A DNA stretch of 64,000 nt from Fluviicola sp. (lineage in GTDB: Bacteria > Bacteroidota > Bacteroidia > Flavobacteriales_D > Crocinitomicaceae), in the NCBI RefSeq assembly GCF_029266855.1, contig NZ_JAQSWB010000006.1:124001-188000 (forward strand), in the 5' to 3' direction. The notes below the pieces were generated by a model, which did not search any database, was not told the DNA's origin, and was given only the letters and a program-made list of their open reading frames with translations. Made by a program: the position numbers and the translations under genes. Within the stretch, counting starts at the first letter, position 1. Every line of letters begins with the position of its first letter. Of this stretch, positions 6,246-21,488 are shown in pieces.

Positions 6246-7652
6246 ATGAGTTATTCTCCGAAAACCATTTGTGCTTTGTCTACTGCTCCCGGAATGGGTG
6301 CTATTGCTTTGATCCGTTTATCCGGAAAAGACGCAATTTCCATTTTATCACACGTTGCAGGTAAACCGTTTGAAAAGGCAGCGTCACACAGTGCACATTT
6401 TGTTCGCTTAAAGAATAGTGACGGAACTGTCCTGGATGAGGTGGTCGTAACGGTTTTTCACGAAGGACACAGCTTTACAGGAGAAAACACAGTTGAAATA
6501 GCTTGTCACGGTTCGGTATTTATCCAACAGGAGATCATCCGTTTGTTATTGGCGAATGGCTGCGAACTGGCTAAGCCGGGAGAATTTACCATGCGGGCTT
6601 TTTTGAATGGAAGAATGGACCTGAGCCAGGCAGAAGCGGTTTCAGACCTCATCGCTTCCGAATCTGCACGTGCACACGAAGTAGCGATGAACCAGATGCG
6701 CGGATCCTTTTCAACCGAACTGCGGGATTTACGTGAAAAGCTGATTCATTTCGCCTCATTGGTGGAACTGGAACTGGATTTCGCGGAAGAAGACGTGGAA
6801 TTTGCAGACCGTACAGAACTGCTTGCTTTGGTAACAGAGGTTTTGGCTTATGTACGCAGATTGATCCAATCCTTTGAACTGGGAAATGTTCTGAAGAACG
6901 GAGTTCCGGTTGCAATAGTGGGTGCGCCGAATACGGGGAAAAGCACCTTGCTGAATCAACTGCTTGGCGAGGACCGGGCGATTGTGAGTAACATTGCAGG
7001 TACTACCCGTGATGTCATTGAAGAAATATTGAATATCGACGGAATTCTTTTCCGCTTAATTGATACAGCCGGGATCCGCGAAGAAGCAGCCGAGGAGATC
7101 GAAGCAATGGGAATCCAACGTTCGCTTGATAAGATCAAACAAGCTAAGATTGTACTGATGCTGAGTGATTACAGCGGGAACAATGCTTCAGATGAAGGCC
7201 ACTTATCTATGAATCCGGAAGAAACCGGTCGCTGGGCAGATGAACAGGCAAAGAAATATCCCGGAGCTCATTTTTTAGTGATCGGAAACAAATACGATCT
7301 GCGTTCGGATCAAAATAACACTTCATGGGAATTCGAAACCCCATTCTTAGCGATCAGTGCTAAAAAGGGAGAAGGAATCGCGGAATTGAAATCCTGGTTG
7401 TCACAGCAAATCCTGGGTTCCTTCAACACACAATCCGATACCATTGTAACCAATGCCCGCCACTTGGATGCCCTGGAAAAAACACAGGATGCCCTGGAAA
7501 AAGCAAAATGGGGACTGGAAACCAACATCACCGGAGATTTTGTAGCCATGGATATCCGCCAGGCGATGTTCTGGCTGGGAAGTATTACCGGTCAGATTTC
7601 CGAAGATGATCTGCTGGCGAATATCTTCAATAAGTTTTGTATCGGAAAATAG
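6246..7652 (+). CDS. mnmE: tRNA uridine-34 5-carboxymethylaminomethyl modification GTPase
   Basis: 468 aa, full length. N-terminal tetrahydrofolate-binding domain (about 1-120), a helical domain, and an inserted G domain with G1 GAPNTGKST near residue 226, G2 GTTRD near 251, G3 DTAG near 272 and G4 NKYD near 347. The protein ends with FCIGK, whose cysteine is the hallmark of MnmE. With MnmG it adds the cmnm5 group to U34 of tRNAs reading NNA/NNG codons. It stands alone between a long intergenic region and a convergent regulator gene whose stop codon abuts its own. Confidence 0.97.
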   Translation: MSYSPKTICALSTAPGMGAIALIRLSGKDAISILSHVAGKPFEKAASHSAHFVRLKNSDGTVLDEVVVTVFHEGHSFTGENTVEIACHGSVFIQQEIIRLLLANGCELAKPGEFTMRAFLNGRMDLSQAEAVSDLIASESARAHEVAMNQMRGSFSTELRDLREKLIHFASLVELELDFAEEDVEFADRTELLALVTEVLAYVRRLIQSFELGNVLKNGVPVAIVGAPNTGKSTLLNQLLGEDRAIVSNIAGTTRDVIEEILNIDGILFRLIDTAGIREEAAEEIEAMGIQRSLDKIKQAKIVLMLSDYSGNNASDEGHLSMNPEETGRWADEQAKKYPGAHFLVIGNKYDLRSDQNNTSWEFETPFLAISAKKGEGIAELKSWLSQQILGSFNTQSDTIVTNARHLDALEKTQDALEKAKWGLETNITGDFVAMDIRQAMFWLGSITGQISEDDLLANIFNKFCIGK

Positions 7653-8006
7653 TCATCTAACGATGTACAACTCACCATGTCGGTTTTGATCTTCCCTTGT
7701 TTTACAGATCTCCTGAAGTATTCTTAATAATTTCATTCCTCGATGCATCCCAAAACCCGGATACACAAAATACCTTCCCTGGTCATATTTGGTTGTGATG
7801 TAATTCATTTTTCGAAGCACGGAAAGCTGATAATAGACTTGCCGGATAGTTAACCCCGTTTCCATGACGAGCTGATTAACCCTGCATTTTTGATATTCGT
7901 TGATGACTTGAATAATATAGATGCGATCAACATTGGAAACGATCCGGGCATGTCTGCAAAACTCAAGTGTTTTTTCGTCGTAAAGATGTTTGTTTTTAAC
8001 GTACAT
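7653..8006 (-). CDS. Small winged-helix (ArsR/MarR-like) DNA-binding protein
   Basis: 117 aa. The region from about 28 to 100 reads as a winged helix: an RIYIIQVINEY first helix, then VNQLVMETGLTIRQVYYQLSV as a helix-turn-helix with recognition helix, then KMNYITTKYDQGRYFVYPG as the beta wing. It resembles ArsR-type repressors but has no metal-binding cysteine pair. The role is probably transcriptional control. It lies convergent to mnmE with no spacer. The region between its start (8006) and the next gene at 8179 is AT-rich and could hold both divergent promoters. Confidence 0.65.
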   Translation of the reverse strand: MYVKNKHLYDEKTLEFCRHARIVSNVDRIYIIQVINEYQKCRVNQLVMETGLTIRQVYYQLSVLRKMNYITTKYDQGRYFVYPGFGMHRGMKLLRILQEICKTREDQNRHGELYIVR

Positions 8007-8178
8007 AGTGGATTTTAGAAAAAATGAATAATTCGTTTCTTATTTAAGTTAATAAAAAAGAGGATTCTAAAATCTATCGGGATAAAATTTTTTCACCCTG
8101 ATTGTAAAGCAACTTCTTCACTTTGATTACGTTAATAGAAAAGAAGCTTAGCGAACTTCTTTATTATTACTGAGATCG

Positions 8179-11085
8179 ATGAAAAATATACACCACTTTT
8201 TATCGAATGAGACCTATAACAAACGAAGCAGCTTACCTGGTTTTTTGCATGGTCTTTTATTCGTGTCACTGCTATTCTTTGCCGACAGAGCGCTAGCTCA
8301 GGGCGACAACTGTGACCAGGCCCTGGCCTTAACGAACGTTACCAATTTTTGTTCATCAGCAACTCAATATACAAGCACCAATTCAACAGCTAGTACATTC
8401 GGACCTGCAACCTGCTGGACAGCCACCGCTACTTCGGATGTTTGGTTTTCTTTTGTTGCAATCGGTACGAATGTATTGATCTCCGTTAACGGAGCGACCA
8501 TGCAGCAACCACGGATTGCAATTTATTCGGGAACCTGCGCCGGAGGGTTAACACAGCCTCCCGGAGGGTGTACAAACGGATCAGGTGGTTCTCCGAATAC
8601 CCAGCTTTTCAATTCAGGCCTTGTCCAGGGAACAACTTACTTTATCAGGATCAGTACTACCGCTGCACAAAGAGGATCTTTCCAGTTATGTATTAATAAC
8701 TACACTCCACCACCAACGGCATCTGCAGATTGCAACGGGGCAGGCAGACTGTGCAACAAAAATTCGATCAGTGTAACCAACCTGACGAACGGTGGGGTAA
8801 ATAACAATGAAAATGCAGGAACCTGCCTGTCCGGTTTCGGAATTTTTGAAACCAATTCGGTTTGGTACACTTGGACCTGTCAAACTGCAGGAACCCTGAC
8901 AATGGATATCATTCCTGCAAACCAAATGGACGATATTGATTTTATCGTTTTTCAGCTGAGTACTTCAGACCCATGCGGACCACGAACTGCTATCCGGTGC
9001 ACGGCAACTTCTTTTATCAATGGAAATGCAAGTACCGGAATGAATGCCAGTTCAACCGACCAGAATGAAGGAATCGGATGGACCGGGATTGAGGATGCTT
9101 ATGTTCAGCAACTTAACATGACTGTCGGGACCAGTTATGCGATTCTGATCAATAATACCAATGCGACGAATGGTTTTTCATTGAATTGGGGCGGAACAGG
9201 GACCTTTGTTGGTCCGGATGCAAATATTACCGGCGGACCTTTTACCGTTTGTGCCGGAAATCCCATATCATTAGACGGAAATACATCTACAGGTTATAAC
9301 TCACTTAGCTGGAATTTTTCAAACGGATCAGGCTCACCCGCAAATGCCACCGGGCCCGGACCACATGCAGTTACTTACTCCACCGCAGGAAGCTATGTGG
9401 CGATCCTGAACGCAACTTCTTCTACCGGATGCACTTCCGTAGAAACGGCGACGATTGTGGTCAGTTCGGGTGTCACACCAACTTTTGCAGCTGTCCCGGC
9501 TTTTTGTTCCGGTCAGCCAGCTCCGGCATTTCCGGCACAGACAAACGCACCACTCGTACCGGGAACCTGGTCGCCCAATGTTATCAGCAATACCGCCTCG
9601 GGGACCTATACTTTTACCCCGAATCCCGGGCAATGTTCAACCACTCCGGCAAGTATTTCCGTTACAGTCAATAATTCAATTACCCCGACATTTCCGGCTC
9701 ATCCGCAATATTGTTTGAATGCAATACCACAGGCTTTGCCGGGAACTTCAGACAATGGGGTTACCGGAACGTGGTCACCCGCAACCATTAATACACTAAC
9801 GGCTGGAACTGCCAATTACACCTTTACTCCTACGGGGAATCCGTGTGCAGCACCTGTTACAGTTGCAATTGTTGTAGAAGCTCCGGCTATTCCTTCATTC
9901 ATACAAATCCCGGCATTTTGTTCTGGTGAGATTGCACCTGTTTTACCTGCTTCATCTGCTAATGGAATTACCGGAACCTGGTCACCGGCACTCGTAGACA
10001 ATATGGCTTCCGGAACATATACTTTTTCACCGGATGCCGGACAGTGTGCCACAACTGCTGCTATGACGATTACTGTAAATACCCCGGTAGCACCGAATCT
10101 TACTCCTGCAGGTCCGTTTTGTGAAAATACGGCAACGGGAGCAAGCTTAACAGCTGACATTCCCGGGGGAAGCTGGTCAGGTGCCGGAATTACAGACCCG
10201 AACGGAATTTTTACTCCGGGTGCTGCAGGCGTGGGAACACATTCACTAACTTATACACACACCCAGGGATGTGGCGGAATAAACACGATGGATGTCGTGG
10301 TGAATGCAGTACCGAACTCTGCTTTTGCTGCTGATGTTTTAAGCGGCTGTACTCCGTTAAACGTTCAATTTACTTCCGATCCTTCCGTTGCGTCTTCTTC
10401 CTGGGATTTCGGTGATAATTCAACTGCAAACGGGATAGGAAGTGTTGCTCATTCATTCAATACACCCGGAACTTATTCGGTGACTCTAACGAACGCAGCG
10501 AACGGATGCTCATCAAGTACAACTCAGACAAATTATATTACGGTATATCCGAATCCGGAAGCAATTTTCAATGCAAGTCCGCAGGTACTTACTCAAACGG
10601 AAACAAATACACAATTCAATAACCATTCGGTAAACGGGAACTCTTACTTCTGGACATTTGGGGACGGAGACAACAGCAACCTGGAAAATCCGGCGCATCA
10701 CTATCCTGAAGTTCCTGGAAATTACACGGTTACTTTAATTGTTACCAGTTCAAATGGCTGCACAGACCAGGCATCATTGATTATCACTGTGAAAGACAAT
10801 AAACTGATCTATGTCCCGAATGCCTTTACACCGGATGGCGATGAGTTCAATAATGTTTTCGCCCCGATAGTGACAGCAGGTTACGATACGCAAAACTATT
10901 CATTTACTATCATTAATCGCTGGGGAGAAACGCTGTTTGAATCTCATGATGTGAACAAAGGTTGGGATGGAACTTACCAGGGCAAGCTGGTTCCGGCGGG
11001 CATTTATACCTGGACTATTCGCATCAAAAACCTGGATGATGACCGATATGAAGTCTTCAACGGTCATTTGAATATGATGAGGTAG
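8179..11085 (+). CDS. Large secreted PKD/repeat protein with T9SS type B (gliding-motility-associated) C-terminal domain
   Basis: 968 aa. Its signal peptide is preceded by an unusually long polar N-region (hydrophobic core about 24-37, ALAQ cleavage). Two cysteine-containing domains at about 45-180 and 185-340 contain WFSF and WYTW patterns like other Bacteroidetes adhesins. Residues about 434-635 hold three tandem copies of a roughly 67-residue module with FCSG, GTWSP and SGTYTFTP. PKD domains (WDFGDNS, WTFGDGDNS) follow. The last 95 residues begin YVPNAFTPDGDEFNNVF and contain NRWGETLFES, WDGTYQG and PAGIYTW, the type B CTD. Likely cell-surface or released; function unknown beyond adhesion-like architecture. 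Confidence 0.85.
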   Translation: MKNIHHFLSNETYNKRSSLPGFLHGLLFVSLLFFADRALAQGDNCDQALALTNVTNFCSSATQYTSTNSTASTFGPATCWTATATSDVWFSFVAIGTNVLISVNGATMQQPRIAIYSGTCAGGLTQPPGGCTNGSGGSPNTQLFNSGLVQGTTYFIRISTTAAQRGSFQLCINNYTPPPTASADCNGAGRLCNKNSISVTNLTNGGVNNNENAGTCLSGFGIFETNSVWYTWTCQTAGTLTMDIIPANQMDDIDFIVFQLSTSDPCGPRTAIRCTATSFINGNASTGMNASSTDQNEGIGWTGIEDAYVQQLNMTVGTSYAILINNTNATNGFSLNWGGTGTFVGPDANITGGPFTVCAGNPISLDGNTSTGYNSLSWNFSNGSGSPANATGPGPHAVTYSTAGSYVAILNATSSTGCTSVETATIVVSSGVTPTFAAVPAFCSGQPAPAFPAQTNAPLVPGTWSPNVISNTASGTYTFTPNPGQCSTTPASISVTVNNSITPTFPAHPQYCLNAIPQALPGTSDNGVTGTWSPATINTLTAGTANYTFTPTGNPCAAPVTVAIVVEAPAIPSFIQIPAFCSGEIAPVLPASSANGITGTWSPALVDNMASGTYTFSPDAGQCATTAAMTITVNTPVAPNLTPAGPFCENTATGASLTADIPGGSWSGAGITDPNGIFTPGAAGVGTHSLTYTHTQGCGGINTMDVVVNAVPNSAFAADVLSGCTPLNVQFTSDPSVASSSWDFGDNSTANGIGSVAHSFNTPGTYSVTLTNAANGCSSSTTQTNYITVYPNPEAIFNASPQVLTQTETNTQFNNHSVNGNSYFWTFGDGDNSNLENPAHHYPEVPGNYTVTLIVTSSNGCTDQASLIITVKDNKLIYVPNAFTPDGDEFNNVFAPIVTAGYDTQNYSFTIINRWGETLFESHDVNKGWDGTYQGKLVPAGIYTWTIRIKNLDDDRYEVFNGHLNMMR

Positions 11086-11088
11086 GAA

Positions 11089-12594
11089 TCAATCATTTTT
11101 CTTCAACTTTTCATAATCGATCTTCGAAAAATGCCGCGGATCTTTCGGTAGTTCACCAAGTACAATTCTATCCACGAAAGGAAATTTCTCTTTCAAAAAG
11201 TCAGTTGATATTTTTGGAGTCTTCAATTCTACAAACAAAACAATTTCCCGGTTTATTTTTAAGATGGTTCCGCTAAGGACTGCTTGCTCTTGTTTAAGCC
11301 GAAATTCCAGGAGAAAGGGTGAATAGATCCGACCTTCAGCTTCGAATAAATAGGCTGAACGACCTGTCAGATAAAGCAACCCGTCTTCTCCGATAAATCC
11401 ACTGTCACCTGTTCTGTGCCAGCATTTTCCATCCACTTTTATTTTGTTTCTAAGGACGGCTTCCTCATTATCAAGATAGGTATCCAAGACATGCGGACCC
11501 GCAACACAAATTTCTCCTGTTTCTCCTGCTTTCAGCTGCATCTGCTCAAGCTCCATGGAAGAATTGACTAAGATCATTTTGTCGGTAATGGGTAAAATCA
11601 AGATTTCGGTTGTGCGGTGAACCTGACCTACACACAGTCCTTTTTTTACTTCAGGATCTTCATTCTTCAGTTGATCTGATGTGATTGCACTGATTGGCTC
11701 AGCCTCTGTTGAACCATAAACAACAGACACTTTCGCATCCTGAAAACCCTTGTTCAAAGTTACAGCCTCATCCGGAAACACCGGAGCCCCACCGGTGAAG
11801 ACTTTCTTCAGGTCAGTTAATTGAATCTTGTTTTGAGAACAATACTCCGCTACCCTGATGGCAAAATATGGAGATGAAACCAAGCGGTTAACTTTTTCAT
11901 CCCGAAGCAATTTAACGATGACTTCCGGGTTCATTTTTCGGGCTTTTTTCGACTTAAAAGGCGCTATGACCGAAGTGCATCCAGTTCCCAGATTGAGGAG
12001 GAGAACGATGGGTAAAACAGGCATATCCACTTCCCCCTTCTGTGGCTCGATCTTCTCAATAAGTGCATTAAATTGACTTTTCAAATGCGCATGCGTTCGT
12101 ATTGCCGCTTTTGGAACTCCCGTACTTCCGGTGGTAAAAGTAATTAACGCAACATCATCAGCAGTTGTTTGAGTTTTCGAATAGGGGAAACTGGCTTTAT
12201 AAGTCAAACCAGATTTTAATGGAGTTTTTCTCAGTTCCTTGGATAAAATCGACAGGCACTTTACTTTCCATCCACCGATCCATGCTTTGCAAGCGGCTAA
12301 GCGGCAACAAACATCCAAGCGTTCCCTGCTAATCCATTCGTCGAGAAAAACTACTGTCGCTCCAATATCAAAGAGAGCCAGTACGATGCGGTACAGATCA
12401 ATGCTCATCGGAACAAAGACCAAAACCCTATCACCTTTTTCTATTCCTTTGGATTGAAAATAAGCAGCAGTTTCTTTTACTTCGGCTGATAGGTCACCAT
12501 AAGAAATACGCTTATTTCCGCTTACAATTGCGCACCTTCCGGGTGAATTATCAGCATGCTGAAAGAATAGATCGGTGACGTTTATCCTGCTCAT
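11089..12594 (-). CDS. AMP-dependent acyl ligase (acyl-CoA synthetase / fatty-acyl-AMP ligase type)
   Basis: About 501 aa from MSRINV. It carries the ANL-superfamily core motif ITFTTGSTGVPKAAIRTH, VYGSTEAEPIS (A5) and HRTGDSGFIGEDGLLYLTGR (A7/A8). The very C-terminal region has KIDYEKLK at the place of the catalytic A10 lysine. The overall look is closest to acyl-CoA ligases acting on long or branched acids such as OleC-type enzymes. A longer TTG-started frame exists to 12675 but would run back into the upstream gene; the ATG at 12594 sits one base from that gene's stop. It is the last gene of the nine-gene lipid-type operon and plausibly activates an acyl group for the preceding GNAT-like protein. 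Confidence 0.8.
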   Translation of the reverse strand: MSRINVTDLFFQHADNSPGRCAIVSGNKRISYGDLSAEVKETAAYFQSKGIEKGDRVLVFVPMSIDLYRIVLALFDIGATVVFLDEWISRERLDVCCRLAACKAWIGGWKVKCLSILSKELRKTPLKSGLTYKASFPYSKTQTTADDVALITFTTGSTGVPKAAIRTHAHLKSQFNALIEKIEPQKGEVDMPVLPIVLLLNLGTGCTSVIAPFKSKKARKMNPEVIVKLLRDEKVNRLVSSPYFAIRVAEYCSQNKIQLTDLKKVFTGGAPVFPDEAVTLNKGFQDAKVSVVYGSTEAEPISAITSDQLKNEDPEVKKGLCVGQVHRTTEILILPITDKMILVNSSMELEQMQLKAGETGEICVAGPHVLDTYLDNEEAVLRNKIKVDGKCWHRTGDSGFIGEDGLLYLTGRSAYLFEAEGRIYSPFLLEFRLKQEQAVLSGTILKINREIVLFVELKTPKISTDFLKEKFPFVDRIVLGELPKDPRHFSKIDYEKLKKND

Positions 12595-12595
12595 T

Positions 12596-13603
12596 TCAAA
12601 TTGATTTTGCGTAAAGTACGTATTTCCGGTAGGGTTGTGAATTGAAGTTCTGAGAAATCCCGGCAGAAGTAGCATCGTAAATCATAAAAGCGTGAATAGC
12701 ATCTTCCATTCCGTCTTCAACAGCCCGTTTCATCACTTCCAAAGCAATTACATGTCCAACACCGGCATATTCATTTCCATATTTCCGGGCAACCGTTTTA
12801 TAAACCAATTGCTTTTTTGTTTTCTCAAGGAAATTTTGAAATGCGAATACAAAAGCAATTAATTCACCCTCTTTTTCCGCCAAAAGCACGTATCTAGTTC
12901 CTAATTGACGAATAATCCCGGCATATTTTCTGTAAAAAGTCTCCCATGAAATACTCGTATACAAAGTGTTTCGTTCAAAGGCTGCTTTCACCAAGGGGAA
13001 CAATTTTTCCAGTTCCTCATAGATTCTCGAAGCATCGAATTCCCGAAGGGTGATTCCATTTAAGTGTGTTTCCCGGATTTTATGGGCTACTTTTTCGTTG
13101 TTAACAGTAATTCCCCGCTCGATCCTGCTTTGATAATTCAGGATCACTTCAAATCCTACTTTCCGGAACAAGTCGTTGTAATAAAGCGGATGAATGGCTT
13201 CAGATAAAAAAAACGGATTGTTGTGATGTACACTGAAGCGGTAATTGTCCCAGGTAGAACCGTTCATTGGTCCCAGGATGTATCTGAATCCGTTTTCTTT
13301 TGCCCAATGATCAACTTCATGCTGCATGAAGAGTGCAACTTCTGTTTTATTGACACATTCGAAGTTTCCAATACAACACGCTTTTTCATCTTTCCAAAAT
13401 AATTCGGGATTGTGGTATAAGGCCAATCGACCAACTGGAATGTCATTTTCTGTAACAACAATACATTCAACCAGGAATTCAAGATTTAAATCATCACTTT
13501 GGTCTTGTCCAGCTGAATTTTCAATATAAACCTGTTTTTTTACTTCTGAAAAAAGATGGAAATTATTCCGGTCCGGAAATGTCTTATGAAGTTTTAAGCT
13601 CAT
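12596..13603 (-). CDS. GNAT-like (double-domain) acyltransferase candidate
   Basis: 335 aa, no signal peptide. The first half has CIVVTENDIPVGRLALYHNP and IGNFECVN strands and GPMNGSTWDNYRF. The second half repeats a similar fold with RYVLLAEKEGELIAFVFAF and a helix after GVGHVIALEVMKRA. This is the pattern of two GNAT folds in tandem, as in FemX-like or peptidogalycan-type proteins; the CoA-binding loop is not canonical. It overlaps the upstream kinase-like gene by 4 bases and ends one base before the acyl ligase start. That makes amide or ester transfer of the acyl group activated by the ligase a reasonable but unproven role. Confidence 0.6.
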   Translation of the reverse strand: MSLKLHKTFPDRNNFHLFSEVKKQVYIENSAGQDQSDDLNLEFLVECIVVTENDIPVGRLALYHNPELFWKDEKACCIGNFECVNKTEVALFMQHEVDHWAKENGFRYILGPMNGSTWDNYRFSVHHNNPFFLSEAIHPLYYNDLFRKVGFEVILNYQSRIERGITVNNEKVAHKIRETHLNGITLREFDASRIYEELEKLFPLVKAAFERNTLYTSISWETFYRKYAGIIRQLGTRYVLLAEKEGELIAFVFAFQNFLEKTKKQLVYKTVARKYGNEYAGVGHVIALEVMKRAVEDGMEDAIHAFMIYDATSAGISQNFNSQPYRKYVLYAKSI

Positions 13604-14271
13604 AAGGAAGCAAATAAACTGAGTAATAATACCACTGATAACGGAATGGTGAGGTTATCGGACCCTTTTCCGCTGACTGCCTCTACCAACGTGGCGCCGG
13701 TTGCGACTAACACTAACTGATATGCTGTCATAAAAGAAAGCTCTTTGTTGAACAGATAAGAAAGTCCGAGTAGTACAACAAAAGCACTTAGAAGGAAAGC
13801 GGTACAACCCATTAAGGTTTTGCTGTATTTTCCGACAGTGAATTCACCCTTAGGCCAACGTTTTCCGAACAAGGCAGCCAATGGATCTGAAATAGCCAGC
13901 ACCAAAACGGGGGCATAAAAGAACATCAAATCGTATTGATGATACTCGTACAGAAGAAAACACGAGTATACAGCAAGGGGATAGAGAATACTTCCATGTG
14001 ATTCCCTATCAATGGCATTGATTGAGGGAAGAAAGCGGTACTTCAAACTGAACAATAAAATCACAGCGAAAGAAGCGCAAAGAACCAATACCGACCAGGA
14101 ACTTGTCAGATAGGCGGGAAACAACAATGTTAATGCTCCTGTTCCAAAATGAACCAATTTCCTTGTGTGTTCGACTTTTGTCGAAGTTATTCGATGAATG
14201 AGCTCACTTATTCCGAATAAGCCCAGAAAACAAAATGAAAGCCAGATTAATGGCACTATATCGTCATTCAT
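13600..14271 (-). CDS. Dolichol/phytol-kinase-like CTP-dependent lipid kinase (integral membrane)
   Basis: 223 aa, about seven membrane segments. It begins with the family signature EHTRKLVHFGTGALTLLFP at about residues 34-52, then has LAISDPLAALFGKRWPKG and GKYSKTLMGCTAF in the middle and VEAVSGKGSDNLTIPL near the end. These are the conserved blocks of the VTE5 phytol kinase / DGK1 / Sec59 dolichol kinase family, relatives of CdsA that use CTP to phosphorylate a lipid alcohol. The gene overlaps both neighbours by 4 bases. In this context it would phosphorylate a prenyl alcohol or a diradylglycerol feeding the CdsA-like enzyme of the same operon. Confidence 0.75.
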   Translation of the reverse strand: MNDDIVPLIWLSFCFLGLFGISELIHRITSTKVEHTRKLVHFGTGALTLLFPAYLTSSWSVLVLCASFAVILLFSLKYRFLPSINAIDRESHGSILYPLAVYSCFLLYEYHQYDLMFFYAPVLVLAISDPLAALFGKRWPKGEFTVGKYSKTLMGCTAFLLSAFVVLLGLSYLFNKELSFMTAYQLVLVATGATLVEAVSGKGSDNLTIPLSVVLLLSLFASL

Positions 14272-15356
14272 AGTTTTGTGTCTAAATGGAATTGCTGATA
14301 GAAAAAACCTTTATCAATTGCTGATAGTTCTTTCGATAATTTTTCTTCGTTTTTTACCTCTTTAGGAAATTGTTGAGCAACAGAACGTGTCACCATCAAA
14401 TTCCAATAGGCCAGTTTTCCACCTGAATTTAATCCGGTTATCAACCCTTTTGTGGTATTTTCAAAAAGTTCAGGTGTCATGTATTCAAAAATGTTTGATA
14501 AGTTCATGTAATCAAACTTTCCATATTGTACAATTGCATTTTCTACATAACCATGAAAAACGTGGAGCTTATCTAAATTCTGCTTGATAAGCATGTAGTT
14601 TTCCGGTTCTAAGTAATGCGGCAACAAAGCTCTGAAATCGCCCGTCAGGTTGTAATTGAGGATGAAATTGTGCTGAGCACCTTTGCTTTTCAGGTGGGCT
14701 GCCGCTTTATTGTAAATCGTTCTTCCTACATGAACATCTACCTGTTTCAAAAACTCCGGATCCCGTCCATATTTTCCCATAATTGTTTTACTGAAGAACA
14801 ATTTGAATAAGAAACGCCAACGCCAGTTATTCCAGGTTTTATTGTAAAATTCCTCCTGCTGCTCTTCCGTTTTTTCGGAAAGCAAATCCGCAATATGTTT
14901 TTTGGTATGAATCCAGGGAAGGATTTTATTTGCAAAAAGCTGGAAATAACGCTCAAACTTGCCTTCATGGATTATTCCGTTCGACAACTGATCTTTGTGC
15001 TGATCCCAGTACTTTTTCGTTCTTTCCGGTAAGTGCTGACAGATTTTATGGTAGATCCTGATCCTTGAATCACACTTGCTGAATCCAAGAAACTGTAGCA
15101 ATTCTTCGTATTCCAAGTGTCGAATGGCTTCCCGTTTCAATTCTACCAAATAAAGCTGAATTTGATTCACATCAACAGCAACTACTAATTCCGGGTTTGA
15201 AATCAGTAGTGAAAAACTATTATCACCTGCCGAAGCAATTGACAGAAAACGCTTGTCTTCATCAGGATTTAAACCTTTCAAGAGCACATCAGCATCTTCC
15301 CAACAATTGGCATAGCGGATCAAAGCAAAGGAAACTTTATCTGTTAGTTTATTCAT
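14268..15356 (-). CDS. BtaA-like (DUF3419) S-adenosylmethionine:lipid 3-amino-3-carboxypropyltransferase candidate
   Basis: 362 aa from the ATG that overlaps the upstream stop by 8 bases; an upstream TTG is less likely. It has IRYANCWEDADVLLKGL near residue 13, where the CWED block is diagnostic for DUF3419. SIASAGDNSFSLL and VVAVDVNQIQLYLVELK follow, the SAM-binding glycine loop and acidic beta-2 end. Later FDYMNLSNIFEYM matches the family's YxNLSDIFEYM-like region. BtaA moves the aminocarboxypropyl group of SAM to diacylglycerol to give diacylglyceryl-homoserine. No BtaB-type trimethylating partner is adjacent, so the product might stay a homoserine lipid or be modified by the GNAT-like protein. 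Substrate identity is inferred. Confidence 0.75.
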   Translation of the reverse strand: MNKLTDKVSFALIRYANCWEDADVLLKGLNPDEDKRFLSIASAGDNSFSLLISNPELVVAVDVNQIQLYLVELKREAIRHLEYEELLQFLGFSKCDSRIRIYHKICQHLPERTKKYWDQHKDQLSNGIIHEGKFERYFQLFANKILPWIHTKKHIADLLSEKTEEQQEEFYNKTWNNWRWRFLFKLFFSKTIMGKYGRDPEFLKQVDVHVGRTIYNKAAAHLKSKGAQHNFILNYNLTGDFRALLPHYLEPENYMLIKQNLDKLHVFHGYVENAIVQYGKFDYMNLSNIFEYMTPELFENTTKGLITGLNSGGKLAYWNLMVTRSVAQQFPKEVKNEEKLSKELSAIDKGFFYQQFHLDTKL

Positions 15357-17949
15357 TTTCCGGGGTTCCTTTTTTTTCAATTATTTTTATTGTTCCCGTG
15401 CTTCCGTCCATTTCCACAAGATCTCCTGTTTTTAATGTCCGCAGCAAACCAGTTACTCCCACAATGCATGGTATTCCCATTTCCCGTGATACAATTGCTG
15501 AATGACTTAGTAAACTTCCGCGTTCCACAATAATTGCAGATGCACTTGGGAACAAGGTTACCCAACCCGGATCAGTACTGGAAGTTACCAAAATGGCACC
15601 GTGCAAAGAGGCAATATCTTTTGGGTTTTTGACCACCTGCACGCGCGCTGTTACTCGACCCGGACAACACCCTGTTCCCTTCAGATCACCTTCCAATTGC
15701 TCTACCTTATCCGTGCTAAAAAAATCATTTGCATGGTAAACGAGTCCATAACTGGCAAAGCGCTCTGCCGGTGTTTCCGTTCCTTCATAGACCTCAAATT
15801 CTGATTTTCTTAGTTCTACTAATTTCTTCAGATCCTGAGTTACTGATCTGCCTTGGATAAACTGTGTGATTTCTTCTTTTGTGAGGTAGAAAATATCCCG
15901 ATCCTTATTCAAAATCCCTTCTGCATAAAATCGAATTCCCATTGCAGAAAACAATTCGCGTACAATCCCGAAGGCTCGTGTGCGCTCGTAACGCAAGTTT
16001 TCACGTGATGAAACCAATTCACGCGTTTTTCTTAAAGCTTTATTGAACTTGTATTTTTTGTAGAATTTACCACGAAGTATGGAATTCACTTCTGCTTCCG
16101 CTTTTGAGCGAATTTCTGCTTCCTTATTTCCTGAGCGCTTGCTTAAAGTTATTTCATTCTGAACATAGCTTTTCAGGATGTCTAAAAATAAGGTCGGGTC
16201 TTGCGTATAAGATATCGTTTCCAGTTTTAATTCACCGACACATCTTTCTCCGAAATCGGTAATATAGCGTTGTATTTCATTATAAATTCTTCCGGACTCA
16301 TCTTCGGAACCGGCATTTTTTAATTTGTTCCAAAGCTGCTTTGAGGGTAAATTCAGGAACATTTCTTTCATCTCCGGCAATTGAGAAATTTCCGTTGAAA
16401 GTGCAATGGTTCGATGAATGGGTTGTGTAGAAATGATATCTGCGCTTCCACAAAGTAAATCGTTGTGAATATTCGGGTTGACACTTTTCAACTTCTTCTC
16501 GCACATGCTTTGCAAACGACCGAACCAGATCATGGCAAAGAAATCGTTCAGTAAAGGTGCTTTCCATTCGTTCAATAAAGTGTGCTCGAAATCCAGGTAC
16601 AATTGCAACAATTCGTTTGCACTCTTTTCAGTGAAATCAATGGCTTTGTATTTCGCGATCGTAGCGTTTAAGAGGTTTTCAAAGTCTTTTCTTTTTCTTG
16701 AGAGCGAATAATAACGTGAAGTCATTTTGAAACCCATTTTTACAATCCGCCACCAGGCCTGACCTTTGGAAATGAGGTAAGATTCCGGAATGTCGAAACG
16801 CTCTTTCACTCCCATCATTTTTTCCATGAAACGCGCATTGATACTGTATCCGGGCAACATCGCCAACATCAGGTACCACGTTTTCAGGTTGTAATAGACG
16901 CGACCATTGATCAGTCCAAGTGTATTTTCGAAAACGCTGGTATTCCGTTCGATCACTTTCTTGTCAACACCCAAATATTCGCAAAACAAACGGTAAGCAC
17001 CTTCATAGGATTTACTGATGAAGGAAAAGGTGAGGGGTGTTGTTACTCCCGGATAGGATTCGATGATATTGCTGTTGTCCCAAAGGACATAGGTATCATT
17101 CTTGTCAGGAATTTTGGAAAGCGAAGTAATGGGTCTTGATTGCAGCAAGTACAGTTTTCGATCGGCAAACGCAAATTCAATGTCTTGCGGTTTTCCAAAA
17201 TGTCTTCCAAGTTGTTTAACCAGTTTTTGAACTTGCTTTATTTGTTCTTTGTAAAGTACTTTAGCCTTTTTCTTTTTTTCCGGAAGTTCTTCTTTCACTA
17301 TACCTGATTTTCCGGTTTTGTTGTAATGAAAGCTATGTGTCTTTATAGCGATGTCTGTTTCAATTCCATTTTCGGTTACCAAGTAATTATCGGCATCCAG
17401 TTCTCCGGAAACTAATCCTTCACCCAGTCCGAAAACTGCGCTGATCAGTTGCTGTTTGCGATTTCCCGTAACAGGATTGATTCCAAACGCGACACCCGAA
17501 CTTTCGGAAGATATCATGACCTGGATAATAATTCCCAAGCCATTAGATTGTTTGAGTCCATTTTTTTCGCGGTACAATTGCACACGCTCAGCAAACGAAG
17601 ACTTCCAAACTTCCTGGATCTGTTCTGCTAAATTTTCTTTGCGGACAAACAGCTTTGTTTCAAACAATCCGGCAAAGGAAAAATCTCCGCCATCTTCGTC
17701 CAAAGCTGATGAACGCACAGCCAGAAAATCGGCATCTGAAAAATGAGTTTGAATTTCATCGAGCAAATCGGCTGGCAAAGTCAGTTTGCCTGTGTCATCT
17801 GAAAAATCTTTCAATAATTGTTGAGAAAGTACCACCCAATGCGGAACATTCAGTCCTAAATTGGACAATTCGCTCAGATTTTTTGCTTTTCCACCAATGG
17901 AAGGATCCGGATGTTGCCGTAGCATTTCTGCGTTTAATATTCTTTTCAT
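15349..17949 (-). CDS. PEP-synthase/rifampicin-phosphotransferase-like dikinase
   Basis: 866 aa, the length of the rifampicin phosphotransferase (RPH) group rather than PEP synthase. N-terminal PPDK ATP-grasp domain: GGKAKNLSEL (19-28), FLAVRSSALDEDG, GINPVTG, FGLGEGLVSGELDAD and the LLQSRPIT end. A long, poorly conserved central domain (about 300-760) is where RPH binds the acceptor. The C-terminal swivelling domain has DPGWVTLFPSASAIIVERG and SLLSHSAIVSREMGIPCIVG with the phospho-carrier His816. Such enzymes move the beta-phosphate of ATP to an acceptor with release of Pi. Here, inside a lipid-type operon and overlapping UbiA by 4 bases, a lipid or prenyl-alcohol acceptor is more likely than pyruvate or an antibiotic, by inference. 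Confidence 0.75.
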   Translation of the reverse strand: MKRILNAEMLRQHPDPSIGGKAKNLSELSNLGLNVPHWVVLSQQLLKDFSDDTGKLTLPADLLDEIQTHFSDADFLAVRSSALDEDGGDFSFAGLFETKLFVRKENLAEQIQEVWKSSFAERVQLYREKNGLKQSNGLGIIIQVMISSESSGVAFGINPVTGNRKQQLISAVFGLGEGLVSGELDADNYLVTENGIETDIAIKTHSFHYNKTGKSGIVKEELPEKKKKAKVLYKEQIKQVQKLVKQLGRHFGKPQDIEFAFADRKLYLLQSRPITSLSKIPDKNDTYVLWDNSNIIESYPGVTTPLTFSFISKSYEGAYRLFCEYLGVDKKVIERNTSVFENTLGLINGRVYYNLKTWYLMLAMLPGYSINARFMEKMMGVKERFDIPESYLISKGQAWWRIVKMGFKMTSRYYSLSRKRKDFENLLNATIAKYKAIDFTEKSANELLQLYLDFEHTLLNEWKAPLLNDFFAMIWFGRLQSMCEKKLKSVNPNIHNDLLCGSADIISTQPIHRTIALSTEISQLPEMKEMFLNLPSKQLWNKLKNAGSEDESGRIYNEIQRYITDFGERCVGELKLETISYTQDPTLFLDILKSYVQNEITLSKRSGNKEAEIRSKAEAEVNSILRGKFYKKYKFNKALRKTRELVSSRENLRYERTRAFGIVRELFSAMGIRFYAEGILNKDRDIFYLTKEEITQFIQGRSVTQDLKKLVELRKSEFEVYEGTETPAERFASYGLVYHANDFFSTDKVEQLEGDLKGTGCCPGRVTARVQVVKNPKDIASLHGAILVTSSTDPGWVTLFPSASAIIVERGSLLSHSAIVSREMGIPCIVGVTGLLRTLKTGDLVEMDGSTGTIKIIEKKGTPENE

Positions 17950-18896
17950 GGCAGTAAGTGTTGAATCATTGGAATAGCTCCGAGAGAGAGGTACATCAGA
18001 ATGGTCCAGATCGCTGACGTGTATTCCATCATTTTTGCCCGTTTTTCGGTGATTTTATTTAATGAAAACCAAGCCGGAACAGAGCAAAGCAGGTAAATTC
18101 CTCCGAAAATGAAATAAGCTATCATTCCGTATCCGGCAAAATAAACGGCCCATAAACTGCAGGCAAGCGTTACAGTAAGAATGACTAACCATAAAGTCAA
18201 AGCTTTTTTTGTGCCCAGCATGGAAGAATAGGTTAATACACCTTCCTGTTCATTGTTGGGAGTTCTGATTTTTCTGCCTATTTCCAGTACAATTCCATTG
18301 AAATAGGAAACCATGAAAAACAGACCTAATCCGGGTGATGGTGTTGCATTTTCCACAACCCAATCCAGTCCGCTCGCTAAAATATCGATCAACGGAATGA
18401 TGAACATATGTGAGGTGACATACCAGAACTGGTGTTTTTTTAACCATTCCGGAACGAAGAACTCTTTTCCCATCAAACAGAGATAGGCCAGAACAATCGC
18501 CCAAATGACCAGCAGTTTCGGAAAGAACAGGAGGATTATTGCACATTGGGCAAGCACCAGGATAATTCCCAGTATCATTAATTCGCGAAGTGAGACCAAA
18601 CCGCGCGGGACAGGAAGCTCTTTCCGGTACTTTGCATCGTCTTCTGCGTCTTTGAATTCATCGAAAATACGAACCAGTAAGAAGAAAGAAATGGTGATGA
18701 AAACGCCTAATCCATAGGTAGACCACTGAACAAATCCTTCTGCTCCCCGGCAAATTCTTGAAAACGCGATAGCAGAAAAGCTGAAACTTGCAACCAGAAG
18801 TCCGTGTCCCAGGATTGGAAAACGTTCTTTCTGATAGAGCAGAAAGCGTCGGAAAAACGACCTGGCATTTTCCTGCGGATTACTGTATTCGTTCAT
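17946..18896 (-). CDS. UbiA-family prenyltransferase with degenerate second aspartate motif
   Basis: 316 aa, nine hydrophobic helices. The first Asp-rich motif is RIFDEFKDAEDD, with D79, D83 and D87 spaced as in the NDxxDxxxD site, followed by the usual LPVPRGLVS. At the second motif, where UbiA enzymes have DxxxD, it reads EIGRKIRTPNNEQEG, without aspartates but with conserved Arg/Lys/Glu. That may mark a subfamily with another acceptor or metal geometry. UbiA proteins join polyprenyl diphosphate to aromatic rings, sugars or glyceryl phosphates at the membrane. Start codon is 4 bases into the operon order HMGR-PgsA-CdsA-UbiA. No aromatic-ring genes sit nearby. Confidence 0.75.
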   Translation of the reverse strand: MNEYSNPQENARSFFRRFLLYQKERFPILGHGLLVASFSFSAIAFSRICRGAEGFVQWSTYGLGVFITISFFLLVRIFDEFKDAEDDAKYRKELPVPRGLVSLRELMILGIILVLAQCAIILLFFPKLLVIWAIVLAYLCLMGKEFFVPEWLKKHQFWYVTSHMFIIPLIDILASGLDWVVENATPSPGLGLFFMVSYFNGIVLEIGRKIRTPNNEQEGVLTYSSMLGTKKALTLWLVILTVTLACSLWAVYFAGYGMIAYFIFGGIYLLCSVPAWFSLNKITEKRAKMMEYTSAIWTILMYLSLGAIPMIQHLLP

Positions 18897-18901
18897 GTCG
18901 A

Positions 18902-19633
18902 TCAGAAATTAGTGATTAAATAAACGATTCCAAAAAATCCGCCAAGTGAAACGATGAAGCTGTCAAAGCGATCCAAAATTCCACCATGTTGGGGAATAGT
19001 ATTTCCGTAATCCTTCACATTGGTAATGCGTTTGAATAGCGAAGCAAGCAAGTCTCCGCCAAAGGCAAGTAAGGCTATAAATGCCCCGAATAGAATTGCT
19101 TCCGGCCAGGTTGATTGCAAGGAATCGTTATGTAACAGGTAGTATGCAGATGTTGCAATGGTAATCAGGAACGCTCCGATGAACCCACCCCAGGTTTTGT
19201 TTGGACTTAATCTCGGTGTAATTTTTCGTTTTCCAATCAGTTGCCCAATAATCTGGGCGAATCCGTCAAAACAAAACACCAATAAGTACACGTATAAGAT
19301 TTCGCGTGGAGCTAAAAACCACGCTGCCGATTGAAAGGCGAAAATCAGGACCAAAAACGAAAGAATTGCAACTATCCGATTACGAAGGCCTGTTCCGGGT
19401 AATAACAGGACTAGCTCAAAAAATGCCACCAGGGAAATGAGGAGTGCAAGCCAAAAGAAAAAGTCAAAGTAGATACTCACAATAACGCTATTAACGATGC
19501 CAAGGTAAACAAGGTATTTAATCCATCTGTTGCGTTTTTCCGTACTCGTTTTTTTGCGTTTATTGATTAGTGCAATGGCAGCAGCTCCGATTACAAAATA
19601 GATAATGACTAACAAGTAGACACTAACTAGCAT
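18902..19633 (-). CDS. CdsA-family phosphatidate (or prenyl-lipid phosphate) cytidylyltransferase
   Basis: 243 aa, seven to eight membrane segments. The C-terminal CDS signature is complete: FKRITNVKDYGNTIPQHGG followed by ILDRFDS, with the two metal-binding acidic positions. SPNKTWGGFIGA at about residue 140 is the other conserved block. It converts a lipid phosphate plus CTP to a CDP-lipid. Bacteria normally carry one housekeeping cdsA, so a copy embedded between a CDP-alcohol transferase and a UbiA homologue suggests a dedicated paralogue, as with archaeal CarS, though family placement would need a tree. The gene overlaps its upstream neighbour by 11 bases. Confidence 0.82.
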   Translation of the reverse strand: MLVSVYLLVIIYFVIGAAAIALINKRKKTSTEKRNRWIKYLVYLGIVNSVIVSIYFDFFFWLALLISLVAFFELVLLLPGTGLRNRIVAILSFLVLIFAFQSAAWFLAPREILYVYLLVFCFDGFAQIIGQLIGKRKITPRLSPNKTWGGFIGAFLITIATSAYYLLHNDSLQSTWPEAILFGAFIALLAFGGDLLASLFKRITNVKDYGNTIPQHGGILDRFDSFIVSLGGFFGIVYLITNF

Positions 19634-20207
19634 TGTTCGGCGATTTTAGAACATGAACAAGCGTTTTTGCGTTCGACCGTAATTCATCCAGATAAAGCAC
19701 GCAAACGAGTTCTTCCAAATAAGCCAATGAACTGAAGACGATCATAAAATAGAAATATGGCGGATAATTCCCGAAATTGAAAAAGGTGAAAATGAAGATA
19801 CCCTGGATGTAACCTGTGATCTTATTGCTATACAAATGCAAACTCGCACTCCTCCTGAACTTGATTAATGAAATGAGTTGCGGAATAATGTACATGGCCA
19901 TCATCAGACTAAATTCGAAAACATGTTCCTGGATAAAACCGAAGTGGAAATAGAACATACCTGTAAAGGCACAGATATAAGTCCCAATATCAGCAACACT
20001 GTCCAGTCGCGCTCCAAACTCCGTCTGCATATTGAATCGTCGCGCGATGAATCCATCCAAAATATCGGAAACCAGGTTTGCAGACAGGAGAATAATGAAT
20101 AAGTGACTGTTGTTTGAAAACAATGTATAAAACAGCACCGGAAGCGCCAAAATACGGTAACCCGATAGAATATTCGGAACATTCCACAGATTCTTTTCCT
20201 GGCCCAT
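19623..20207 (-). CDS. CDP-alcohol phosphatidyltransferase family protein
   Basis: 194 aa, about six membrane segments. The full catalytic signature D-x2-D-G-x2-A-R-x8-G-x3-D-x3-D is present: D48, D51, G52, A55, R56, G65, D69, D73. The family swaps CMP in a CDP-alcohol for another hydroxyl compound (glycerol phosphate, serine, inositol phosphate). Which alcohol is used here cannot be read from the motif. It starts 3 bases after the HMG-CoA reductase stop and overlaps the CdsA-like gene, so it would use the CDP-lipid made by that enzyme. Confidence 0.82.
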   Translation of the reverse strand: MGQEKNLWNVPNILSGYRILALPVLFYTLFSNNSHLFIILLSANLVSDILDGFIARRFNMQTEFGARLDSVADIGTYICAFTGMFYFHFGFIQEHVFEFSLMMAMYIIPQLISLIKFRRSASLHLYSNKITGYIQGIFIFTFFNFGNYPPYFYFMIVFSSLAYLEELVCVLYLDELRSNAKTLVHVLKSPNNAS

Positions 20208-20210
20208 ATG

Positions 20211-21488
20211 TTACTTTTTACGTCCTAGATTCTGGTGAGCGCTAGCAAAATGTCCTGCCGATAAAGCCGCTGCAATGGAAAGTTCGCCGGCCAAGACCAG
20301 AGCTCCACAAATTTCAGCAAACTTCCGTGCATTTCCTGCTCCCGAACATTCCATTAATTCCAAACATTCACGCTGAGTAGGTAAACCAGTTCCTCCACCA
20401 ACAGTTCCTACAATCAGATTCGGAAGTGTAACACTGCAATACAGTGCCCCGTTTTCTTTTTCTTCCATTCTGGTAATTCCCGTGGCCGCTTCAGCAACGC
20501 ATGCAGCATCTTGTCCGGTTGCAATGAATAATGCTGTCAAACCATTGGCATAATGACCCTGCGCTCCGATTGCCCCGCTTTGAATAATTCCAACGGTAGA
20601 CGAGCGCCAATATTCGGCCATGGCACGTGCCGTAGTTTTCAAAACGCCCTGAATAATCTCTGCCGGAAGGAAAATCTCTGTAGTTACTTTTTTACCGCGA
20701 ACAGACATAAACGATTGAGAAGTTGCTTTCTTATCTCCGGAATAATTTCCTTCAATGAACCACATCTCAGGTTGAATGGGTGTATTTGCAATAATGTACT
20801 TGCAAATTTTATCAGTACAAATTGTCACCATGTTTTGACCGGAAGCATCTCCGGTATGAAATTCAAATGTTAAGATTAAATGATTTCCCTCAATATTGGT
20901 GCGCATATCTTCCAATTTTGCAAAACGGCTGCTTTGTTCCGTTATTTCCCGGAAGTTGTCCATTTGTGCTAAGATCCAAACAACGAACTGTCCGAGCTCG
21001 CCGAGATTATGGAATTTAAACAATGGACTGCGTTGAACACCTTCCACGAGGCAAACAGAAGTTGCGCCTCCGGCAAGCAAACATGCTTTGGCACCACGAT
21101 GATAAGAAGCTACCAAAGCTCCTTCAGAAGTTGCAAGCGGCACGAAGAAATCTCCTTTTGCTGCTGAACCGATTACACGAAGCGGTCCAATAACTCCCGT
21201 TGGGATTTGTGACATTCCTATGTAATTCTCAATATTTCCCTCTAGTTTATCCAAATCAGAGAATGGTTCTTTTCCTGTTAGTACCGGAAGTCCGAAACCT
21301 GTTTGCTCTTCTAAAAAAGCTCTTCGAAGTGTTGTGCTTTCTTCGCTTACTTTTAATTCAATAGGTAAGCGATCATCTTTAATATCAACAATTGTTTTGT
21401 TGGTGATAGACTTTACAATATTATCTACAGTTTGAACAGCTTGCAGAATATGCAATGCTTTAGATGATTTTTGACTTGATGAAGCCAT
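20211..21488 (-). CDS. 3-hydroxy-3-methylglutaryl-CoA reductase, class I type
   Basis: 425 aa from the ATG (MASSSQKSSKAL); a longer TTG frame to 21560 is not supported. The catalytic set of class I enzymes is visible: E87 in ENYIG, K253 in NYSGDKKAT, D327 in IATGQDAA and H413 in SAGHFASAH. Also GTVGGGTGLPTQREC near 361. The dimerisation/cofactor loop reads GDASGQNMV instead of the common GDAMGMNM, which is unusual. It makes mevalonate from HMG-CoA with NADPH and is first gene of the nine-gene operon, so mevalonate (hence prenyl) supply seems tied to the downstream lipid enzymes. None of the other mevalonate genes is in the window. Confidence 0.88.
   Translation of the reverse strand: MASSSQKSSKALHILQAVQTVDNIVKSITNKTIVDIKDDRLPIELKVSEESTTLRRAFLEEQTGFGLPVLTGKEPFSDLDKLEGNIENYIGMSQIPTGVIGPLRVIGSAAKGDFFVPLATSEGALVASYHRGAKACLLAGGATSVCLVEGVQRSPLFKFHNLGELGQFVVWILAQMDNFREITEQSSRFAKLEDMRTNIEGNHLILTFEFHTGDASGQNMVTICTDKICKYIIANTPIQPEMWFIEGNYSGDKKATSQSFMSVRGKKVTTEIFLPAEIIQGVLKTTARAMAEYWRSSTVGIIQSGAIGAQGHYANGLTALFIATGQDAACVAEAATGITRMEEKENGALYCSVTLPNLIVGTVGGGTGLPTQRECLELMECSGAGNARKFAEICGALVLAGELSIAAALSAGHFASAHQNLGRKK

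Follow-up and report, generated by a model that had tools for sequence, protein, structure and literature searches.

Which product would a bacterium make with an operon in which a relative of 3-hydroxy-3-methylglutaryl (HMG)-CoA reductase (HMGR) stands together with a BtaA-like protein, a dikinase, a candidate N-acyltransferase and an acyl ligase? Such an operon lies at 11089-21488 of a 64,000-nucleotide stretch of Fluviicola sp. DNA (contig NZ_JAQSWB010000006.1, positions 124,001 to 188,000), the whole of which is called the window here. In the list of open reading frames (ORFs), nine minus-strand ORFs follow one another in series; neighbours either overlap by 4-11 bases or are 1-5 bases apart. 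All nine are in place, with the spacing reported in an earlier note that had described them as a nine-gene operon for an unusual isoprenoid or amino lipid. In the direction of transcription we designate the genes H, O, C, U, D, B, K, N and A; further loci carry L numbers and genomes G numbers. Our answer, which we hold at a little under an even chance, is that they belong to an accessory cassette making an ester-free amino (phospho)lipid that bears a phosphate and two chains, one an alkyl ether and the other an N-acylated aminocarboxypropyl chain.

A scan of named genomes yielded at least 501 confirmed relatives of B, the BtaA-like protein. The best 80 were kept, so gene order was counted among the nearer relatives of B, and the count covers the 42 of these 80 loci that reach at least 7 kb before and at least 6.5 kb after B. 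The exact order HUDBKNA, on a single strand, was found in 36 of the 42. In the six exceptions, the fetched stretch ends before H (L043), H is missing (L063), BKNA is accompanied by HOCUD elsewhere on the same contig (L070), or K is missing (L089, L090 and L119). C and/or O occur in 10 of the 42 long loci, at differing positions, and in 5 of the 19 carriers within the organism's own family, where contig ends cut four of the others. The cluster is thus conserved, but not as the set of nine that the earlier note had treated as one: the conserved unit consists of the seven core genes H, U, D, B, K, N and A, with C and O as optional add-ons.

Within the family, B is present in 19 of 150 genomes, the organism's own included (18/114 among good genomes), and absent from 131. 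The 18 other copies have the same neighbours as far as their contigs reach (stretches up to 20 kb). The flanks of the family loci are mostly different; only the near relative L023 has several in common, and six loci have a member of one additional gene family after A. In a phylum sample of 395 genomes, strong matches to B (E<=4e-69) were obtained in 12 and weaker ones (E>=6e-36) in 15 more, which are probably ordinary BtaA-like proteins; U was found in ten genomes, all of them among the 12. Since gene order holds throughout the phylum amid mostly different flanks, the operon is more than a chance arrangement. The cassette is accessory and scattered over Bacteroidota, and the divergent cases, L133-L136, are partial or rearranged sets, down to B alone in L136 (G374). 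Joint conservation in other Bacteroidota, a check that had been suggested beforehand, was examined in this way, and the genes stay together. This co-conservation, the absence from most family genomes and the presence of another HMGR elsewhere in the own genome support the proposal of a dedicated, non-housekeeping lipid pathway.

Seven of the nine operon proteins pass the curated Pfam cut-off. Among them is the core protein H (20211-21488; like all operon genes on the minus strand), which is class I HMGR-like (PF00368, HMG-CoA_red, 1e-117) with an altered HMG-binding site and has a median identity of 40% to the archaeal HMGR 6hr7. We aligned 65 cassette HMGRs to human and archaeal HMGR, namely that of the window, those of 51 of the 53 H loci from named genomes (the other two yielded no complete frame) and 13 from family loci, near-copies and two HMGR-APH fusions (L090, L119) included. 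In all 65, the catalytic residues E559, K691, D767 and H866 (human numbering) are kept, and R590, D690, K692 and N755 are likewise retained. Equally without exception, S684 is replaced by E, M657 is replaced by Q, and K735 is lost (S in 43, T in 15, N, P and A in 2 each, L in 1). The same pattern was seen in 58 of 58 sequences at 97% non-redundancy. S684 and K735 are ligands of the HMG carboxylate in the published human HMGR structures. An HMGR tree has many open forks and leaves unsettled whether the E684 enzymes form a single clade; canonical HMGRs and HMGR-APH fusions fall into one group in it.

Genes of the mevalonate and methylerythritol phosphate (MEP) pathways were looked for in 37 family genomes, comprising all 19 carriers and 18 of the 131 non-carriers. 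DXR was present in 36 and diphosphomevalonate decarboxylase (MVD) in 11, and these 11 are exactly the genomes with another HMGR (1e-80 to 1e-88). MVD was not detected in 16 of the 19 family carriers, and 11 of the 19 had no match to the mevalonate kinase model TIGR00549, a model used solely for this last count, as its matches in 36 of 51 genomes all remained below the cut-off and had other GHMP kinases mixed in. No full-length MVD was found in 26 of 32 further carriers, two of which (L043, L045) repeat family genomes: matches at E<=0.001 were obtained in 15 of the 32, but 9 were partial (best E 1.2e-6 or weaker), and the six with E<1e-40 were counted. Drafts may miss genes in these counts; G070, a single contig with 100% completeness, has neither an MVD nor a mevalonate-kinase match. 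HMG-CoA synthase (PF08540) was found in none of the 37 family genomes, even the 11 with MVD, and is uninformative as a marker; the synthase of these genomes may be too divergent for PF08540, or of another type. The second HMGR of the own genome is of class II (TIGR00532, 261 bits, cut-off 260) and lies in a mevalonate cluster (L041:8233-14459) with isopentenyl diphosphate isomerase, two GHMP kinases, MVD and a prenyl diphosphate synthase. Besides this cluster, the own genome has the DXR of the MEP pathway.

Because two ligands of the HMG carboxylate are lost and most carriers have no detected MVD, H does not appear to be a mevalonate enzyme; it is probably an HMGR converted to another substrate, with a product other than mevalonate. 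The earlier note had assigned mevalonate synthesis to H, an assignment that the ligand loss in 65 of 65 sequences and the missing full-length MVD in most carriers tested speak against, and the isoprenoid product that it had derived from this mevalonate loses its support as well. In that proposal H supplies mevalonate for extra isoprenoid, U prenylates, and the remaining enzymes build an isoprenoid amino lipid. The class I fold and intact catalytic residues of H, the UbiA superfamily membership of U and the availability of MEP-derived prenyl diphosphates, given DXR in nearly all genomes checked, would agree with it. Against these stand the lost ligands, the lack of MVD (16 of 19) and mevalonate-kinase matches (11 of 19) in most family carriers, and a mevalonate cluster in the own genome that has its own HMGR. 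We consider it quite improbable.

HMGRs with E at position 684 also occur outside the cassette. Two genomes encode HMGR proteins of about 770 amino acids with the S684E signature away from it (L139:1368-3668 and L140:9404-11728), where a divergent dikinase and a desaturase for fatty acids are encoded nearby; an APH domain was shown for the L139 protein. These loci possibly represent a second pathway of the same kind. In a Microscilla genome, a second HMGR-like protein (L165:8512-10065), which is divergent and has this E as well, is again encoded outside the cassette.

What H might do instead is suggested by loci in which core genes are replaced. L133 (G320) has a PF07993 reductase, a DAGK_cat kinase, U, D, N, a phosphatidylserine (PS)-type decarboxylase and B, in this order, and lacks H, K and A in the stretch read. 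L134 (G536) has a PF07993 reductase, D, B, K, U, N and a PS-type decarboxylase, without H or A. No HMGR match was found in either genome. Searches with these reductases, the DAGK_cat genes and the PS-type decarboxylases gave no match in 98 other loci from family and named genomes or in L136-L138. DAGK_cat, which takes the place of the missing K in L133, also adjoins B in L135 (G312; 6797-12170), where a divergent B fused to a PEMT-like domain is accompanied by an N-like GNAT and a pyridoxal phosphate-dependent decarboxylase; this is perhaps another amino-lipid operon. In the K-less loci L090 and L119, the HMGR-APH kinase fusion adjoins the cassette on the opposite strand, and in the genome of K-less L089, pieces of HMGR bearing the same signature lie away from the cassette. 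These replacements hint that H, with or without A, may supply a primary alcohol from a thioester and that K may phosphorylate a lipid alcohol. They also bear on the idea that mevalonate serves as a building block, as it does in fungal siderophores, with H making it, A activating it and N coupling it to an amine. A, N and H do share one operon, and no downstream mevalonate pathway would be needed, but the HMG ligands of H are lost and HMGR is absent where the thioester-reductase-type gene stands in, which makes this idea very improbable indeed.

The amino part of the proposed lipid would come from B and N. B (14268-15356, core) is a near full-length match to DUF3419 (PF11899, 1e-67), and transfer of the aminocarboxypropyl group of S-adenosylmethionine (SAM) is known from the DUF3419/BtaA family. 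B would be such a transferase; its SAM-binding motif S.[AG]SAGDN occurs in 67 of 78 sequences. Sequence searches gave no convincing solved relative of B, and a fold search gave weak SAM methyltransferases only. N (12596-13603, core) had no Pfam match at E<=1e-3; among 20 relatives, 13 gave an Acetyltransf_1 match at E<=1. Its predicted model resembles tandem GNATs in a fold search, and hhalign aligned it with E. coli YghO over 327 columns (probability 99.0, 16% identity) and with the BL21 copy of YghO (98.9); two controls stayed low, at 0.3 for an unrelated GNAT from the window and 0.1 for B. PMC9386255 gives yghO as aca, the acyl-CoA N-acyltransferase gene of dihydroceramide synthesis, and N is a candidate N-acyltransferase. 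In L090 and L119, B is fused to N, which hints that N may act on the product of B. The amino-lipid half of the original proposal is thus strengthened by the family of B, the YghO likeness of N and the B-N fusions.

The same observations feed the main alternative, a ceramide-like homoserinol lipid that would mimic ceramide phosphate. Here B makes an aminocarboxypropyl ether and N acylates its amine; A activates its carboxylate, which H converts to CH2OH, and this hydroxyl is phosphorylated by K. The product would be an N-acyl amino-alcohol phosphate. Such a scheme would explain the HMGR-APH kinase fusions (H followed by K), the B-N fusions, the likeness of N to YghO, and the lost carboxylate ligands together with the acidic residue gained in H. 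However, L133 and L134 have the thioester-reductase-type gene with no ligase in the stretches read, and no clear role is left for U and D. We regard the homoserinol lipid as rather unlikely.

The other core proteins are U, D, K and A. U (17946-18896) is a membrane protein of the UbiA superfamily (PF01040, 1e-12, 48.4 bits against a cut-off of 34.2), and its first Asp-rich motif, DExKDxxxD, is present in 51 of 51 sequences. D (15349-17949) resembles phosphoenolpyruvate (PEP) synthase, with PPDK_N (PF01326) and PEP-utilizers (PF00391) domains, and its phospho-His motif is present in 62 of 62 relatives, as are the motifs RK..H and G.DN of K (13600-14271). K is dolichol/phytol-kinase-like, with a PF01148 match below the cut-off (7e-4), and is a candidate lipid-alcohol kinase. 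A (11089-12594) is an AMP-forming acyl ligase (PF00501, AMP-binding, 2e-45) whose nearest NCBIfam models are the PRK09274 and OleC ligases, at scores below their cut-offs. An assignment of A as an AasR-type ligase was rejected: it has 23% identity to the BL21 ligase, which matches PRK09192 while A is nearest to PRK09274.

From these families and fusions we infer a route to the ester-free amino (phospho)lipid in which all genes would act in one linear order. A would activate a fatty acid, H would reduce the acyl thioester to a fatty alcohol, and D would phosphorylate this alcohol. U, in the membrane, would then join the activated alkyl group to a glycerol-type acceptor as an ether. Like BtaA with diacylglycerol, B would attach the 3-amino-3-carboxypropyl group of SAM to a hydroxyl that is still free, N would acylate the new amine and thereby add the second chain as an amide, and K would phosphorylate the remaining hydroxyl. 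The phospho head group may be served by C and O where present, or by the PS-type decarboxylase of the two variants together with housekeeping enzymes. C (18902-19633) is a CdsA-like cytidylyltransferase (PF01148, CTP_transf_1, 1e-39) and O (19623-20207) a CDP-alcohol phosphotransferase (PF01066, CDP-OH_P_transf, 2e-20), whose motif D..DG..AR...G...D...D is present in 11 of 11 relatives. In L118, A is followed by O and a CarS-like gene (CDP-archaeol synthase family), an arrangement that fits an ether-lipid phosphate. What the sequences show directly is which families the genes belong to, their conserved order, the lost HMG ligands, the undetected MVD in most carriers, and the replacements and fusions; every substrate, the reaction sequence and the lipid structure are inferred. 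The roles given to U and D are the least certain.

Several points weigh against this route. The second Asp-rich motif of U, DxxxD, is replaced by ExGRK (NGxVxExGRK in 49 of 51 sequences), and a saturated alkyl diphosphate would be an unusual UbiA donor. K735 was judged across a one-residue gap, and a neighbouring residue could partly stand in for it; MVD is present in 9 of the 51 carriers checked. Only a small number of genomes, drafts among them, contribute the fusions and variants, the absence of A from L133 and L134 was checked in 20-kb stretches only, and the PF07993 genes, of the thioester/fatty-acyl reductase type, score under the NCBIfam thioester-reductase cut-off. N is fused to A in L109, so A may feed N rather than H, and A is kept in L063 and L109, whose genomes (completeness not given) show only a class-II-type HMGR or none.

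The altered motif also leaves the prenylation that the earlier note had ascribed to U unproven. It bears likewise on the notion that U makes an archaeal-type prenyl ether with a chain from the MEP pathway while H reduces something else. Among proteins of solved structure, U is closest to digeranylgeranylglyceryl phosphate synthase, at a weak E of 0.0024, and the CarS-like gene of L118 would suit such a lipid, but the missing second Asp motif counts against it, and we judge it unlikely.

All parts of the cassette belong to known enzyme families, and their combination into one lipid pathway appears undescribed. Betaine lipid synthesis (BtaA/BtaB) shares the DUF3419 family of B, but the seven core genes include no methyltransferase and instead an N-acyltransferase, ligase, kinase, reductase, UbiA-like protein and dikinase; no BtaB-type N-methyltransferase is among the nine operon proteins, the rest of the own genome not having been searched. 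With ceramide synthesis in Caulobacter and E. coli BL21 (spt, acpR, aasR, epi and aca/yghO; PMC9386255) the cassette shares N, a near full-length relative of YghO, beside which an acyl ligase is encoded. However, the core genes include neither serine palmitoyltransferase nor an acyl carrier protein (the former was sought in the operon, the rest of the genome not being searched), and A resembles the BL21 ligase only at superfamily level. H has the fold and catalytic residues of the class I HMGR of the mevalonate pathway, but differs in its HMG-binding residues, its position outside the mevalonate cluster and the lack of MVD in most carriers. A has its best NCBIfam matches among OleC/PRK09274 ligases, but the operon has no OleA/B/D-type gene. 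D shares ATP-binding and phospho-His domains with PEP synthase, rifampin phosphotransferase and the PigC-RedH ligases, but its scores are all under the curated cut-offs and its partner genes are different. No description of such a gene set or HMGR-like reductase was found in open-licence PubMed Central papers, which is no proof of novelty; PMC12419801 describes other isoprenoid-linked operons.

The cassette might stand for a bacterial membrane lipid of a new class, in which a SAM-derived aminocarboxypropyl group carries an ether and an amide chain, and for use of the HMGR fold as a general thioester-to-alcohol reductase, a prospect that we hold somewhat less than evenly probable. If true, a family taken as a marker of mevalonate synthesis includes a branch that acts on another substrate and is marked by S684E and the loss of K735, and where a genome lacks a mevalonate pathway, its HMGR genes of this kind would be wrongly annotated. 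The cassette points to an undescribed lipid in the culturable genera Dyadobacter, Sphingobacterium, Parapedobacter and Rhabdobacter, and its product and enzymes are directly testable.

Fewer promoters were predicted than in shuffled sequences, and terminators were within the shuffle range. A single PADLOC match of A to LeoA was at chance level and was rejected. As read from the sequence, the likely start codons of B and A are the ATGs at 15356 and 12594, respectively. A plus-strand gene at 8179-11085, encoding a probably secreted protein of 968 amino acids, runs towards the operon, and only 3 bases lie between its end and the stop codon of A.

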